Shown here in pieces: positions 2,504-8,138 of a DNA stretch of 8,138 nt. The translations under genes were made by a program, and so were the position numbers. Origin of the DNA: Anaerolineae bacterium (lineage in GTDB: Bacteria > Chloroflexota > Anaerolineae > 4572-78 > J111); contig JAGRCC010000579.1 in assembly GCA_020433785.1 (NCBI GenBank), positions 1-8,138 on the forward strand. Reading direction: 5' to 3'. The notes beneath the pieces are model-generated. The model was not told the origin of the DNA, ran no database searches, and worked only from the letters and a program-made list of their open reading frames with translations. Position 1 is the first letter of the stretch. Each line of letters opens with the position of its first letter.

Positions 2504-3328
2504 ATGACAGAAGATATAAACAAGTCTAAGACTCTGAGTGCCTCAGATGCTAAGCTGTTGGCTACCTTGAGTGAGCAAGGGCAAAATATCTTCACCGCTC
2601 AAATGGCGACTGAGATCCTCAACCAGCCGTCGGCAGCAGTCCGCAAACGACTCCATCGTCTCACTCAGAAACGCTGGCTGCAACGTCTGGAAAAGGGGAA
2701 GTATCTCATTGTCCCCCTATCAGCCGGGTTAGATGGGCATTATACTGAAAATGAGTTGGTGATTGCCGCTCATTTAATCGAACCCTACTACATCACGTAC
2801 CGGACCGCCCTCAGCTTCTACGGTTATACCGAGCAGCCCAGCCGCAGCGTATATATTGCCACGCCCAAACGTAAATCGGCCCTGACCTTCCACGGCTTAA
2901 CCTACCATTTTGTTACCTTGCCGGCCCACAAGTTTTTTGGGCAGAGCCGGGTTTGGATCGGCGAACATGCGGTGATGATGGCTGACCGGGAGAAGACCAT
3001 TGTGGATGGCCTTGATCATCCTGAACACGCTGGCAGTATCATCGAAGTAAGCAAAGCGCTCTGGCGAGGACAGACCGAACTCGATTTTGAGCGTCTCGTT
3101 GATTACAGTCTCCGGATGCAAAACCGGGCCATCGTCAAGCGTCTGGGTTTTCTATTAGAGTGTCTCGATGTGGGGCCGCCCGCGCTGCGCGAACCGCTGC
3201 AAGCGCATCTCAGTGCCGGTTATGCTCAGCTTGATACGCTATCGCCCAAACGCGGCCATCATAATGCTCGCTGGCGGGTGTTGGTCAATCTCCCCGAAGA
3301 CGAATTACTCAGGTGGCGAGAAACATGA
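2504..3328 (+). CDS. abiEi: AbiEi family antitoxin / transcriptional regulator of an AbiE toxin-antitoxin system
   Basis: Antitoxin half of an AbiE module (classed as type IV toxin-antitoxin; in known systems it counters toxin activity without stable binding to the toxin and represses its own operon). The 274-residue product begins at the ATG at 2504 after AAGGGA. Residues about 11-72 form a winged helix-turn-helix (from LSASDAKLL through RKRLHRLTQKRWLQRL to KGKYLIV). The AbiEi core follows, with YYITYRTALSFYG (96-108), the signature ADREKTIVDGLDHPE (160-174) and GFLLE (215-219). The stop codon overlaps the toxin start as ATGA, so the two are translationally coupled. The family call rests on the motifs and on the neighbour, and the gene looks intact. 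In AbiE systems the pair gives plasmid stabilisation and, in some cases, abortive phage resistance. Confidence 0.92.
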   Translation: MTEDINKSKTLSASDAKLLATLSEQGQNIFTAQMATEILNQPSAAVRKRLHRLTQKRWLQRLEKGKYLIVPLSAGLDGHYTENELVIAAHLIEPYYITYRTALSFYGYTEQPSRSVYIATPKRKSALTFHGLTYHFVTLPAHKFFGQSRVWIGEHAVMMADREKTIVDGLDHPEHAGSIIEVSKALWRGQTELDFERLVDYSLRMQNRAIVKRLGFLLECLDVGPPALREPLQAHLSAGYAQLDTLSPKRGHHNARWRVLVNLPEDELLRWRET

Positions 3329-4155
3329 TCAGTCTACGCGAGGTGCAACGGCTGGCCTTTGAGATCCGGATGCCCGAACAGGCCATTGAGCGTGACTATG
3401 TGTTGACCTGGGTCTTGAGTGAAATCGCTCGCCACCCAATGCTAGGAGCGCAAGCTATCCTGAAAGGCGGCACAGCCATCAAAAAGCTGTATTTTTCAGA
3501 GTGGCGTTACTCCGAAGACTTGGACTTCACCTTGCAGCCACCGTGGGCAGTGGAACCGATTGTTGCTGCCCTGGAAGAGGTCAATACTGCCTGTGCAAGT
3601 TCCGCCGGGCTCGAGGTAGCGGTTTCATCTCAAGAGCCACGACCTGAGACTGGCCAACTGAGCAGCCTGACCATTTATTTGGCCTATATCGGCCCACTCC
3701 GTCGAACCCGACGCCCGCGGGAGCTAAAACTAGATTTCACGAACGATGAGGTTGTGGTCGAAGCACCGGTGCGCCGTTCATTGCCAAGGATTTATTCAGA
3801 TGAGATTGAGCCGGCCGTCGAGGTTTTGGCTTATCCTCTGGAAGAAATTTTGGCCGAGAAAATGCGAACCCTGCTCCAGCGTACGGAGCCACGTGATCTG
3901 TATGACGTTTGGCGACTGCTGACCGATTATGAGGCTGAGATTGATGTGTTTCGCACCAAATCTATTTTTGAGGACAAGTGTCGCTTCAAGGATTTAGCCC
4001 CTGAAAGCTGGACCGAATTTTTGTCCGCCGAACGGATTGAGCGTTTCGCAGCGGCCTGGAACCGCCGCCTGGGCGAACAGGTAGAAGATTTGTTACCTCT
4101 CGATGCTGTGGTTCGCCAGATGCGGCGCTTGATACGGTCTCAGTGGCAGTGGTAA
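3325..4155 (+). CDS. abiEii: AbiEii/AbiGii family nucleotidyltransferase toxin
   Basis: Toxin half of the AbiE module, a DNA polymerase beta-fold nucleotidyltransferase; in this superfamily such toxins act by adding nucleotides to a target such as tRNA. The start chosen is the ATG at 3325, which overlaps the antitoxin stop and is served by AGGTGG at 3311-3316. It gives 276 residues; an in-frame GTG at 3313 would add four. Visible motifs are the active-site block LKGGTAIKKLYF (46-57) with SEDLDF (63-68, acidic D65 and D67), KLDF (135-138), EEILAEKMRTLLQR (173-186) and PRDLYDVW (189-196). All the blocks expected of a working AbiEii are present with no frameshift, so the module is probably functional. 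It converges with the large minus-strand gene, 35 bases away. Confidence 0.93.
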   Translation: MISLREVQRLAFEIRMPEQAIERDYVLTWVLSEIARHPMLGAQAILKGGTAIKKLYFSEWRYSEDLDFTLQPPWAVEPIVAALEEVNTACASSAGLEVAVSSQEPRPETGQLSSLTIYLAYIGPLRRTRRPRELKLDFTNDEVVVEAPVRRSLPRIYSDEIEPAVEVLAYPLEEILAEKMRTLLQRTEPRDLYDVWRLLTDYEAEIDVFRTKSIFEDKCRFKDLAPESWTEFLSAERIERFAAAWNRRLGEQVEDLLPLDAVVRQMRRLIRSQWQW

Positions 4156-4190: not shown

Positions 4191-6815
4191 TTACTCCTCA
4201 GCAGCCAACCTGACCAGGTCTATCGAAATTGATCGGCCCAGGGTCCAGCCCGGATCAATGGTATTGTCGACCATCTTCATAAATGCTGCTTCATCACGCA
4301 CCACTAACAGAAAAGCCTCGACAATACTCCGCAGGTTGCTGCAAATCCATAACAATGTAGAGTAATGCAGCTGCTCGGCGTTGTCTATGATGATGATATT
4401 ATACTGCCCGCGAATTTGACGCTGGATGACCCCATCGGTTGATTCGCCGCGCTTCAAGGGCCGCCCGACGATATTTTCAACCAGCTGGCGCAGCTTGATT
4501 TTGGCTCCCTGCCGGGGGAGTTGGGCCAGAACAATTTGGTCTGCTGTTTCCCGGTGTACCTTGTCCACAAAGCGTTGAACGGTGATTGTGTCTTCGGGCA
4601 GCAACATCGCCAGGCCATAGCCGCCCTGGGCTCGGGGCGTTGCTGTTTTCAAGCGATACAACCCAAATTCGAGGCGAGACTCTTTTGGCGTGATCAACTC
4701 GGGACCCTCAGCCTCAACATCTGTTACCATCTCTTCCGCCTGCTGGTTTAATTGGGCCAGTTCGTTGTACCAGATGGCGCGACTGAGAAACCAGTCCAGC
4801 CCGGCCCGGATTTTCTCGGCCTCGGCCAGAAAGGACTCCTGGTTTCGGACCACCAGCAGGAAGACGCCGGCGATGGCTTGCAGGCTGCTGCACAGACCCA
4901 GCAGGGTCTGGTGATGCAATTTTTCGGCGTGGTCAATGATGATGACGTCGCCCGGATTGCGTTCAAGTTCGGCGATGACGCCGGCGATAGACTCGTCGCG
5001 TCGCAGGGAACGTTGGGTCAGATAGGCCAGCAAGGCCCGCTCTTTGATGCGCGGTCCAGGTTGGGGTAAGTCTACCGACCAGACTTGGTCGTAGCTGTTA
5101 CTGAGGGTACCGACCAACGCTTGAACGGTGGTTTGGTCTGCGGGTGACAAAATAGCTAAGCCATAGGCCTCCCCCTCAGCGCCGGCCGATCTGATCCGCT
5201 CAAGCCAGTCAGCGACCGGTTCTGGCGGGACCGTCATTGGCTCTGGCGTCTCCGCTTCATATCGCACGTGGCTCTGCTCCAGGGCCAGCCGAAGATGCTC
5301 TTGCCAGTCTTCTTCGGTTTCAACCCGTTCGAACAGCGAGGAAAGATGGGCCGGAGTGGTTTGTTGTCGCCGGGCCGTGTGGATCTTGAGCGGGGCATCG
5401 CTCTGGGCTAAGTACTCTGGCCGTAAGCGCTGGATTTGGATCTGACCGGTCGTGTCCGGGTAAGCGATGGCCTGACCGTCAGGGGCTATCAACACATTCA
5501 GCGACCAGGGATTGACATCCGGCAGGGGCAGCGGTTGCTGGGAAACCAGGTTGACCAGTTTCCAGGCTCGCTCCTTGTTCTGCACCAGCCCCAGGACACA
5601 GTTTGCGTCCAGAATTTTGAGCTCCTGGATGGTGGCTTCGAGCGGTGGATCATCTATGGTCGTATGAATGAATTCCCGTTCGTAAACCTCCCGCTGATAC
5701 CAAACCTCGAACAACTGCTCCTCGCCGCCGCAGGCCACCAGCAACATCTCGCCGCTCTGGTTCAGTCCCACCAGGTCAATAGATCGGACCTGCCGGGAAA
5801 AGATTTCGCCCCGGATATGCCGGCCGGTCAGGCTGAAGAATTCCAACTGGCGCGACAGGAAAGGCAGCACAGCCAGCATCTGTCCATCCGGGGTAACGGC
5901 CAGCTGCTTGACCGAAAATTCACCGTACTGGGGCGGCGGTTCCTCTTCTTCAGCCCAGCTGATTTGCCAGCTGGAGCCCAACTCAAGCTGAGTCCGCCGG
6001 ATTTCCAAATCGGCAAACAGTTGCGGTAAGGATAGGGTGTGGCTTTCCTGCCAGGTGGCGGTATGCCACAAACGGAGGGTACCATGCCCTTCGTTCACGG
6101 CGGCCAGAATAGTCCCATCCGGGCTGAATTGCAGCAGGCTGATGACCCCGTAATCGGTCTCGCCGACAAAATCCCACAATTCCTGGGAATAGCTGCTGCC
6201 ATCCACCGGATCGAGACAGGCCACAGCTTGCTGCTTCTCCCAATCCCAAACGTCGATGGTGTCCATATCAGTGGCGGTGGCAATCAGGCGGCCATCCGGG
6301 TTGAAGACTAGCGCTGAGATGTAACCATCCGTTTGGATGGTACGGATCAACTGGCCGCTGGTCGCCTCCCAGATACACAATCGATATTTTTCACCGCCGG
6401 CATCGGGAACCGCGCCGGCCAGGAAGGCGCCATCAGGGGACCAGGCCAATTCCAGCCCCGTATCCACTTTCAGCGACACGTCCGGCGGTAAAGCACAGGT
6501 CAGGCGTTGTCCCAAAGCCGGGGCAGTAACGATAGCGGCGTAGGCCTGATCCAGCCGGCTCCTTTCCGGGGATGACAGGCTCAGAAATAGGGCCGGCTCT
6601 TGTCCAAAGCGCAAGGCCAGAATTTCCAGTTCCCCCAACCCATATTCGCCGTGGCCGTCACGCTCGAGGCGGGCGATACGCGAGCGTGAGCAGCTCAGCA
6701 GGTCGGCCAGATCTTGTTGGGACAGTCCATGACGTTCACGCAGGTCGGTGATTGTTTTAATGAGGCTTGCTTGCCGCTGGGAAGCATACTGTTTGGGTGT
6801 CATTGAGTCGGTCAT
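4191..6815 (-). CDS. XRE-type HTH / WD40-repeat protein with two tandem degenerate MuB/TniB-like AAA+ domains
   Basis: The start chosen is the ATG at 6815, because GGAGGTGAT (6816-6824 on the plus strand, reversed) directly precedes it; this gives 874 residues. Residues about 16-72 form an XRE/Cro-like helix-turn-helix (RERHGLSQQDLADLLSCSRS). Residues about 119-469 form a WD40-type propeller, with SPDG/NPDG/TPDG turns near 124, 171, 230, 307 and 444. Two homologous units follow at about 549-689 and 731-864. Each has a GLA-L-P start where a P-loop would lie, a basic helix, a Walker B-like strand (VIIIDHAEKLH, IIIIDNAEQLH), and LLVVR. The order matches MuB/TniB ATPases, but GK[ST] is absent in both and the Walker B glutamate is H or N, so both are predicted to be pseudo-ATPases. 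The function is unknown. A DNA-binding sensor or scaffold, perhaps autoregulated, is inferred. It has its own promoter and is insulated from the upstream methylase by a terminator. Confidence 0.85.
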   Translation of the reverse strand: MTDSMTPKQYASQRQASLIKTITDLRERHGLSQQDLADLLSCSRSRIARLERDGHGEYGLGELEILALRFGQEPALFLSLSSPERSRLDQAYAAIVTAPALGQRLTCALPPDVSLKVDTGLELAWSPDGAFLAGAVPDAGGEKYRLCIWEATSGQLIRTIQTDGYISALVFNPDGRLIATATDMDTIDVWDWEKQQAVACLDPVDGSSYSQELWDFVGETDYGVISLLQFSPDGTILAAVNEGHGTLRLWHTATWQESHTLSLPQLFADLEIRRTQLELGSSWQISWAEEEEPPPQYGEFSVKQLAVTPDGQMLAVLPFLSRQLEFFSLTGRHIRGEIFSRQVRSIDLVGLNQSGEMLLVACGGEEQLFEVWYQREVYEREFIHTTIDDPPLEATIQELKILDANCVLGLVQNKERAWKLVNLVSQQPLPLPDVNPWSLNVLIAPDGQAIAYPDTTGQIQIQRLRPEYLAQSDAPLKIHTARRQQTTPAHLSSLFERVETEEDWQEHLRLALEQSHVRYEAETPEPMTVPPEPVADWLERIRSAGAEGEAYGLAILSPADQTTVQALVGTLSNSYDQVWSVDLPQPGPRIKERALLAYLTQRSLRRDESIAGVIAELERNPGDVIIIDHAEKLHHQTLLGLCSSLQAIAGVFLLVVRNQESFLAEAEKIRAGLDWFLSRAIWYNELAQLNQQAEEMVTDVEAEGPELITPKESRLEFGLYRLKTATPRAQGGYGLAMLLPEDTITVQRFVDKVHRETADQIVLAQLPRQGAKIKLRQLVENIVGRPLKRGESTDGVIQRQIRGQYNIIIIDNAEQLHYSTLLWICSNLRSIVEAFLLVVRDEAAFMKMVDNTIDPGWTLGRSISIDLVRLAAEE
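4224..4625 (-). other. Second MuB/TniB-like degenerate AAA+ unit within the XRE-WD40 protein
   Basis: C-terminal copy of an internal tandem duplication of about 135 residues. Shared landmarks with the first copy are GLA-L-P, TTVQ or ITVQ, QLP-Q-G, RGES or RDES followed by GVI, IIIID, AEQLH, TLL-ICS-L and FLLVVR. The P-loop position reads LLPEDTITVQ, with no glycine-lysine. The Walker B-like strand is IIIIDN, so the usual DE is DN. Confidence 0.65.
4749..5171 (-). other. First MuB/TniB-like degenerate AAA+ unit within the XRE-WD40 protein
   Basis: N-terminal copy of the duplication. The P-loop position reads LSPADQTTVQ and the Walker B-like strand is VIIIDH. A linker of about 40 acidic residues (including VTDVEAEGPEL) separates it from the second copy. 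The two copies have clearly diverged, so the duplication is old. Confidence 0.65.
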
Positions 6816-6832
6816 ATCACCTCCAAGAGCTC

Positions 6833-6857
6833 GATACAATTCCCCGCGTATTGTATC
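6833..6857. promoter_or_regulatory. Perfect inverted repeat, likely operator, over the -10 box of the XRE-WD40 gene
   Basis: GATACAAT (6833-6840) and ATTGTATC (6850-6857) are exact reverse complements with nine bases between them. The right arm contains the -10 hexamer of the minus-strand promoter, so a bound protein would block RNA polymerase. The helix-turn-helix at the start of the gene's own product is the natural candidate binder, which would mean autorepression. Confidence 0.6.
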
Positions 6858-6878
6858 ATATGGTAACAACACAGACAA
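6850..6878 (-). promoter_or_regulatory. Promoter of the XRE-WD40 gene
   Basis: On the minus strand: TTGTCT (6873-6878), a 17-base spacer, and TACAAT (6850-6855). The -10 differs from consensus at one position. The start of transcription would fall near 6843, about 28 bases before the ATG, inside the inverted repeat. Confidence 0.6.
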
Positions 6879-7004: not shown

Positions 7005-7038
7005 AAATAAAAAAACCTCACCGCGTTGGTGAGGTTTT
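7005..7038 (-). terminator. Rho-independent terminator of the methylase-like gene
   Basis: A perfect 11-base stem, AAAACCTCACC (7012-7022) with GGTGAGGTTTT (7028-7038), around a five-base loop. On the minus strand it is followed by a T-rich run (GGTTTTTTTATTTTAAA). It lies 24 bases after the TAG of the methylase-like gene. It ends that transcript before the separate promoter of the XRE-WD40 gene, so the two neighbours are not one operon. Confidence 0.88.
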
Positions 7039-7061: not shown

Positions 7062-8138
7062 CTATCCGGCAGGTACAGTTGCTCCGGCCGCAATCCTGAA
7101 AATTTGTTCGAAGCTGGCCCCCTCCTCAGCCGAGGGCGGAGTAGCGCCATTTCGATAGACATTCCGCAGGATTTGAGCCGGAGATTGCAGATCAGAGTGA
7201 GCTTTCTCATTCGTTTGCTGTTGCCGGGCAGCCAGGGCTTCTGCCGCCGCTGCTTCCAATTTCAACGCATAGCCGTTTAGACCATAAATCATTGTCGATA
7301 TGGAGCTCATCTTAACACAGGTCGCGTCGACGTCCATTCCGCTAAATCTGATTAAGGCGTATTTTACCGCCCAGGGTGGACAACAGGCTGCTGCAGCGAG
7401 GACCATCACGCCAGAGCCGATACAAGGTTCATTGAATAAAACCGGGTCGTAATAAGGATAAGCAGATGGAATCATTTTGTTGATGAAGTATTCCTGAAAA
7501 ATACCGGCCTCACTCTCTTCCGGGATGGCCAATCCGGCCAATAAGGTGGCTGCTCCCAGGATGTTATCCGGGTGACATAAGGCTGCCTTGAGTCGTTGGT
7601 GAATGACCTGCTCAATATCCATCAAGGTGATTTTCCCCATGCATAATGCTAAATTGTAAGGTGTGAAATATTGGGCTTGCCAGGAAGGGTCCGCTTGAGC
7701 CCAGGTCTGGTACACGTCGCCCAGAATATCCGGCCCCATGATACTGCCGTGCGCTGAGTCCTGGTAAGCCCACAAACCGGGCGCTACGCTTTCCAGCAAC
7801 AAAGCAAATGCCTGGCAAAAACCATCCCGCCAAACCCGCTCCTCAAATGAGCCATAGCAGTTGCGCCGGTAGCGCGTCTCGATTTGTTGAAAAATGTTGG
7901 CGACTTCCGGGGTGTCGGGTTTAAATTTCCCGGTGGTACCGGCAGCCACAAGCTGTTCCGGCAAGACCTTCAAGGTCGCTTCGGTCAGGTGGAGAAAATC
8001 GTCATAGACAATCGAGGGACGATGCCCCGTCGCAGAAACAATACCCTCCAGGGCTTTGATCAGCGCGGTGGCATACCGTTTTGGATCAGGGATAAGAGGA
8101 TTATGGGGTGGTCTGCGTTTTCGTTGCGTTCGTTTTTT
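7062..8138 (-). CDS. N6-adenine DNA methylase-like protein (partial; 5' end beyond the right edge)
   Basis: The frame is open to the right edge, with 358 codons visible and the stop TAG at 7062-7064. A TTG at 7973 lacks a ribosome binding site, and the frame before it remains protein-like, so the true start is probably outside. QYFTPYNLA (about 7647-7673) matches the motif X region of type I restriction-modification M subunits. EPCIGSGVMVLAAA (about 7389-7430) is motif I of SAM-binding methylases, and GMDVDATCVKMSSI supplies the acidic SAM-ribose contact (MDVD, about 7326-7337). The expected NPP[YF] catalytic motif IV is not found before the stop; the tail is low-complexity and rich in A, E and Q. 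This resembles the shortened N-6 methylase-like proteins of plasmids and integrative elements. It may bind SAM without methylating, or be truncated. Confidence 0.8.
   Translation of the reverse strand, partial: KKRTQRKRRPPHNPLIPDPKRYATALIKALEGIVSATGHRPSIVYDDFLHLTEATLKVLPEQLVAAGTTGKFKPDTPEVANIFQQIETRYRRNCYGSFEERVWRDGFCQAFALLLESVAPGLWAYQDSAHGSIMGPDILGDVYQTWAQADPSWQAQYFTPYNLALCMGKITLMDIEQVIHQRLKAALCHPDNILGAATLLAGLAIPEESEAGIFQEYFINKMIPSAYPYYDPVLFNEPCIGSGVMVLAAAACCPPWAVKYALIRFSGMDVDATCVKMSSISTMIYGLNGYALKLEAAAAEALAARQQQTNEKAHSDLQSPAQILRNVYRNGATPPSAEEGASFEQIFRIAAGATVPAG

Follow-up and report, generated by a model that had tools for sequence, protein, structure and literature searches.

Two predicted MuB/TnsC-group AAA+ cores without a usable ATP site at the end of an HTH–WD40 protein from an Anaerolineae bacterium

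Sequence comparison together with structure prediction shows that P0001, an 874-residue protein encoded by an Anaerolineae bacterium (GCA_020433785.1), ends in two AAA+ cores that belong to the MuB/TnsC/Cdc6 group, and that neither core has a usable ATP site, the place of which is taken by another conserved motif in every relative found. The protein belongs to a small family, undescribed in the mainly open-access literature searched, in which the AAA+ core of a transposition helper has been duplicated, no longer has its ATP site and is joined to a DNA-binding domain as well as a propeller. The window analyzed here is the whole stretch of 8,138 nt, positions 1 to 8,138 of contig JAGRCC010000579.1.

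Domain layout and AAA+ kinship of the doubled unit

The P0001 gene occupies 4191..6815 on the reverse strand, with an ATG start and a TAA stop. A Shine-Dalgarno sequence (GGAGGTGAT; 6816..6824, reverse strand) lies immediately 5' of the ATG, and a weak promoter-like site with a TG ahead of its second hexamer (9 of 12 matches) was found on the same strand at 6850..6878, seven such sites being present in the window and 5.2 in shuffled sequence. Searches of Rfam and for tRNA genes gave no match. The amino-terminal part contains an XRE-type helix-turn-helix (HTH) at residues of about 20–71 (6603..6758, reverse strand), matched at residues 24–71 by the Pfam families HTH_31 (2e-7) and HTH_3 (1.8e-6). 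It is followed by a WD40 β-propeller at residues of about 118–470 (5406..6464, reverse strand; limits read from the sequence), the repeats of which are found by both Pfam (WD40, 4.9e-10) and a PDB search (WD-40 repeat protein 2ymu, 1.9e-31); counted by eye, the propeller reads as seven-bladed.

The remainder consists of two pseudo-AAA+ units, unit 1 comprising residues 533–692 (4740..5219) and unit 2 residues 716–874 (4194..4670), both on the reverse strand. The two copies share 43% identity over 134 aa (E 1e-31), are offset by 182 residues and leave 23 residues in between; the doubling is also visible in the DNA as a repeat of 76% over 46 nt at a spacing of 546. Unit 2 matches AAA_22 with 26.7 bits, just below the Pfam cut-off of 27. 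Among the nine units of the family that were scanned against Pfam, seven match AAA_22 at E≤1 (best 3.4e-6), and any other family appears in at most one of the nine; two relatives, P0013 and P0025, gave no Pfam hit at E≤0.01. A PDB sequence search with nine units returned nothing significant (best E 0.13). The fold search with the predicted unit structure, in which Foldseek candidates were re-examined by VIA-align and rows within 1 Z treated as ties, gave the transposition helpers TnsC and MuB as the closest structures. The structure prediction has a low pTM of 0.52, and the placing of the two units relative to each other is not fixed by the model.

We compared an alignment of 31 units with 17 target profiles using hhalign. 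In local mode MuB ranked top (E 8.6e-5, probability 60%, 123 columns), followed by TrbE (0.0093), TniB (0.012) and MalT (0.036), while the two reversed profiles (MuB and TniB) and a further eleven decoys scored worse; with shuffled unit columns none of 100 runs against MuB reached the real score (best 23.7 versus 36.8). In global mode MuB was found at E 5.1e-5, the remaining 16 targets yielding 0.17 or worse. Four subsets of units, each run alone against five targets, all had MuB as their best target: the unit-1 copies (n=6) at E 0.00036 and probability 37%, the unit-2 copies together with P0010 and P0011 (n=8) at E 0.00021 and 46%, the units of single-unit proteins (n=15) at E 0.002 and 14%, and the pair P0013 and P0025 at E 0.0038 and 9%. 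A small alignment (A2) run against single sequences gave weak matches to MuB (0.0023 over 28 columns), TniB (0.029 over 54) and MalT (0.16).

By fold, MuB profile and AAA_22 matches, the units thus contain the AAA+ core that characterizes the MuB/TnsC/TniB helpers. The initial annotation had described an XRE-HTH, a WD40 propeller and two nucleotide-site-dead cores of this group, a layout borne out by Pfam, the identity between the units, the fold search and the MuB profile. It had further proposed that both copies keep the strand order, which the fold alignment of the predicted structures supports, and had named a non-AAA fold as an outcome that would speak against its reading; the fold search returned AAA+ proteins (TnsC, MuB).

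The former ATP site

The former Walker A segments are YGLAILSPADQTT in unit 1 (residues 551–563; 5127..5165) and YGLAMLLPEDTIT in unit 2 (residues 733–745; 4581..4619), both on the reverse strand. GK[ST] is absent from the whole of P0001, and neither GxxxxGK[ST] nor its lysine occurs in any of the 31 units from the 25 proteins found. The Walker B segments, IIIDHAEKLH in unit 1 (residues 625–634; 4914..4943, reverse strand) and IIIDNAEQLH in unit 2 (residues 808–817; 4365..4394, reverse strand), retain the aspartate. The glutamate that follows it in hhhhDE is found in 0 of 31 units, the position being occupied by N (20), H (6), R (3), Q (1) or G (1). The loss of GK[ST], the kept Walker B aspartate and the replaced glutamate (IDH, IDN) are exactly as initially described for P0001, and the intact P-loops in homologues that had been put forward as contrary evidence were not encountered in this set.

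In their place we observed residues that are invariant in 31 of 31 units, namely L738, D742, T745, C825, W857 and R861 in unit-2 numbering. D811, E814 and L816 are invariant as well, in part by construction, because the units were picked by a Walker B pattern (D, A or G, E, L, H or S) that requires these residues. An independent pattern, YGLA.L, recovered the same units except the clipped unit 1 of P0009, which lacks its start yet reaches the former loop. At 90% identity the 31 units collapse into no more than 18 clusters. Not counted among them are partial remnants of a unit in P0011 and sequence in another frame in P0010.

The hhalign alignment pairs P740, D811, N812, E814 and R861 of unit 2 with P102, D173, E174, D176 and R224 of MuB, respectively. 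D742 pairs with MuB K106 if the loop is shortened by two residues; without that gap K106 meets a variable column (T 19, I 4, A 4, V 2, N 1, E 1), and the apparent residue pairing within the P-loop depends on where the gap is placed. All 12 MuB rows have S223 and R224, and we take R224 to be the arginine finger of Box VII. Arg861 (4233..4235, reverse strand), aligned with it, is retained in all units, so that a kept Box VII arginine is combined with a lost Walker A throughout. In unit 1 the same alignment column holds Arg679 (LSRA; 4779..4781, reverse strand), at the position where the low-confidence part of the model starts. As read from these alignments, the former ATP site does not look like the product of random decay, a different motif being fixed in the 31 units found; this invariance could equally reflect a new ligand or reaction.

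Relatives and genomic setting

Three protein searches covering 5.8 billion proteins, in which the best 7992, 6378 and 7999 candidates were scored, yielded at least 24 relatives, giving 25 proteins including P0001. At least three proteins combine the propeller with two units (P0001, P0002 and P0014, the last starting inside the HTH), at least three have two units with the N-terminal part absent (P0003, P0004 and P0009), at least ten show HTH, WD40 and one unit (P0005–P0008, P0015–P0018, P0020 and P0021), and at least nine are shorter pieces or lone units. P0004 comes from a Chloroflexota MAG (59.9-kb contig) and P0021 from a 57-kb contig; P0013, at 184 aa and located on a contig of 12.8 kb, has the appearance of an independent gene. 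Two entries appear chimeric and are possibly assembly joins: in P0011 unit sequence follows a start that resembles a short-chain dehydrogenase (Pfam PF00106), and P0010 opens with unrelated or other-frame sequence. No relative was detected in GTDB representative contigs or IMG/VR, a weak absence given scans seeded by few short peptide patterns. The P0001 tail had no match at E≤1 in phages or plasmids. Full-length P0001 matched 42 plasmid records, and among the matches listed (10) all fall within residues 106–478, that is, the WD40 part. Pfam and NCBIfam hold no family covering the HTH-WD40-core-core layout, nor was a description met in the literature searched, including work on its kin and on dead ATPases, with mainly open-access coverage, in agreement with the initial annotation, which knew of no named family.

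In a tree of the 31 units the unit-1 copies fall to the same side of one branch (100/99), the unit-2 copies form one branch with P0010 and P0011 (95/95), and fifteen single-unit rows form a separate branch (97/93). Support is weak (91/47) for the fork at which unit 1, unit 2 and P0013 meet, and the branches of P0025, P0013 and unit 1 of P0014 are long, for which the tree program warns of false joins. The simplest reading is a single duplication of the unit, which probably happened in the P0001 lineage before the known two-unit proteins split. Alternatively, the tree being unrooted, one unit may have been lost in the single-unit lineage.

Downstream of P0001 lie an AbiEi-type antitoxin gene (2504..3328, forward strand; PADLOC AbiEi 1.9e-82) and an AbiEii nucleotidyltransferase toxin gene (3313..4155, forward strand; PADLOC AbiEii 2.7e-71, Pfam 1.4e-37). 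The pair and P0001 stand on opposite strands and converge, their stop codons 35 bp apart. P0001 thus lies outside the AbiEi/AbiEii operon, and a part for it in the AbiE system is not supported. The abortive-infection module postulated next to P0001 is thus present, while its tie to the protein is not upheld by the convergent arrangement. On the other side, a terminator-like hairpin (7012..7038, reverse strand; 20 such hairpins in the window versus 8.9 in shuffles) separates P0001 from the upstream gene at 7062–7973. Since the AbiE genes are convergent and the hairpin intervenes, P0001 is probably transcribed alone, as its own transcription unit.

The upstream gene (7062–7973, reverse strand) shows a weak N6-methyltransferase match (Pfam E 0.019, below the cut-off) and matches phrog_5696, a phrog of unknown function, with 68 bits; an NPPY-type motif was not seen by eye, and phages and plasmids gave no match (tblastn, E≤1e-5). 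A XerC/D-like tyrosine recombinase is encoded at 1328–2272, and no DDE transposase gene was seen beside P0001 within the 8.1-kb window. Upstream of the recombinase gene stand five copies, with 0 to 4 mismatches, of a 19-nt motif, TCAAAGTTRKTGSYAAYGA, at 577, 969 and 1015 (forward) and at 1121 and 1142 (reverse). In 200 base shuffles it occurred 0.3 times on average and at most 3 times, a comparison biased by drawing the motif from the same sequence, and the copies are possible recombination sites. A 349-bp stretch (620–968) between imperfect 34-nt inverted repeats (74%; TACTATACTG...CAGTATAGTA) is a possible MITE-like element.

Possible functions and comparison with known systems

We tentatively favor, at a little short of an even chance, the reading that P0001 is a one-component, DNA-bound, partner-docking regulator or scaffold that works independently of nucleotide. 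The HTH would place the protein on DNA, the propeller would dock a protein partner, and the two pseudo-AAA+ cores would provide a fixed interface that needs no nucleotide, formed by the faces with which MuB and TnsC stack on one another, on DNA or on a client. In this way the protein could control nearby genes, or else recruit or block a partner, with no ATP clock involved. MuB and TnsC form filaments or rings and recruit or activate transposase (PMC11208146, PMC9371665). ATPase-deficient mutants of the related IstB are reported still to permit transposition, to a varying degree, in agreement with mutants of MuB and TnsC (PMC11208146). A dead core could therefore keep its binding surface and drop the clock.

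The same invariance may instead mark a former nucleotide pocket re-purposed for another small ligand or reaction, which would make P0001 a ligand-controlled repressor or an enzyme rather than a mere scaffold. Residues at or near the old site are fixed and not drifting, which exceeds the needs of a scaffold; no catalytic family was matched in Pfam or NCBIfam, however, and we regard this reading as fairly unlikely. Strict conservation of the former active-site positions also exceeds what a generic dimerization tail requires, as does the occurrence of a unit seemingly encoded on its own (P0013), and both observations weigh against P0001 being an ordinary XRE/WD40 transcription regulator with the C-terminal units as a lineage-specific dimerization domain. 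The HTH and WD40 parts are nevertheless the best matched by Pfam, and three JGI entries (P0002, P0015 and P0018) are named 'transcriptional regulator with XRE-family HTH domain', leaving this a fairly unlikely account.

Anti-element defense, in which the units would target an incoming Mu- or Tn7-like element by binding its transposase or its intact AAA+ helper, or would bind another phage protein, and the HTH-WD40 part would convert binding into a response, is in our estimate distinctly unlikely. The closest folds are transposition helpers, and the adjoining AbiE pair with a tyrosine recombinase nearby resembles defense islands, yet the AbiE genes are convergent and separate from P0001, and PADLOC matches on P0001 itself are weak (five models, best 3.3e-5), all inside residues 13–56 of the HTH. 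No relatives were detected in the phage, plasmid and viral collections, a result that is neutral on a host-encoded defense gene. We would give very little credence to the units, themselves devoid of a nucleotide site, acting as arginine-finger donors. In that reading they would cap an intact MuB/TnsC-type filament or ring, or interleave with it, whether it comes from an incoming mobile element or from the host. Hydrolysis would then be forced or growth jammed, with the HTH and propeller anchoring and reporting; if true, this would make P0001 a poison subunit or sensor that sits on DNA and derives from a domesticated transposition helper.

The family possibly represents a transposition helper turned cellular regulator or anti-element sensor. 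Because the motif at the site is fixed and does not resemble random decay, the family also offers a natural experiment on the abilities of the MuB/TnsC core without ATP.

Among known systems, P0001 resembles MuB in the order of an N-terminal HTH (HTH_31/HTH_3 in P0001) followed by an AAA_22-type AAA+ core, and in the alignment of D811 and R861 with the Walker B aspartate D173 and the arginine R224. The MuB relative L055 matches HTH_3 with 25.3 bits (cut-off 23), and Mu's own MuB shows a weak HTH_24; the HTH profiles of P0001 and the MuB type align at E 5.8e-6, XRE HTHs being common and the comparison including no decoy. P0001 differs from MuB in the propeller between HTH and core, in its two cores, and in lacking the Walker A lysine and the Walker B glutamate. 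The proposal that the ends of MuB are kept thus holds for the HTH-then-AAA order, as in L055, and fails at the other end: Phage-MuB_C is matched in MuB and not in P0001, where neither a lid nor the MuB C-terminal domain was found, unit 2 stopping 13 residues past R861.

TnsC has an intact P-loop, as does TniB of R751 (GPTNNGKS), unlike the P0001 units, and compared with both P0001 adds the HTH and propeller and lacks the lid region after the core. Cdc6/Orc1 proteins carry a lid and a winged helix after the core, whereas P0001 has nothing there, a dead nucleotide site and an N-terminal HTH. STAND ATPases (NLR, MalT-type) carry an intact P-loop NTPase between effector and sensor repeats, whereas in P0001 the NTPase fold follows the repeats, is present twice and is dead. 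The order HTH-WD40-core-core and the missing P-loop set P0001 apart from the STAND NTPases, and the MalT profile matches at no better than E 0.036. Pseudo-AAA+ subunits of the clamp-loader delta-prime type have a dead Walker A and keep the Box VII arginine. The units of P0001 likewise combine a dead Walker A with a kept arginine; no clamp-loader-like partner is known for P0001.
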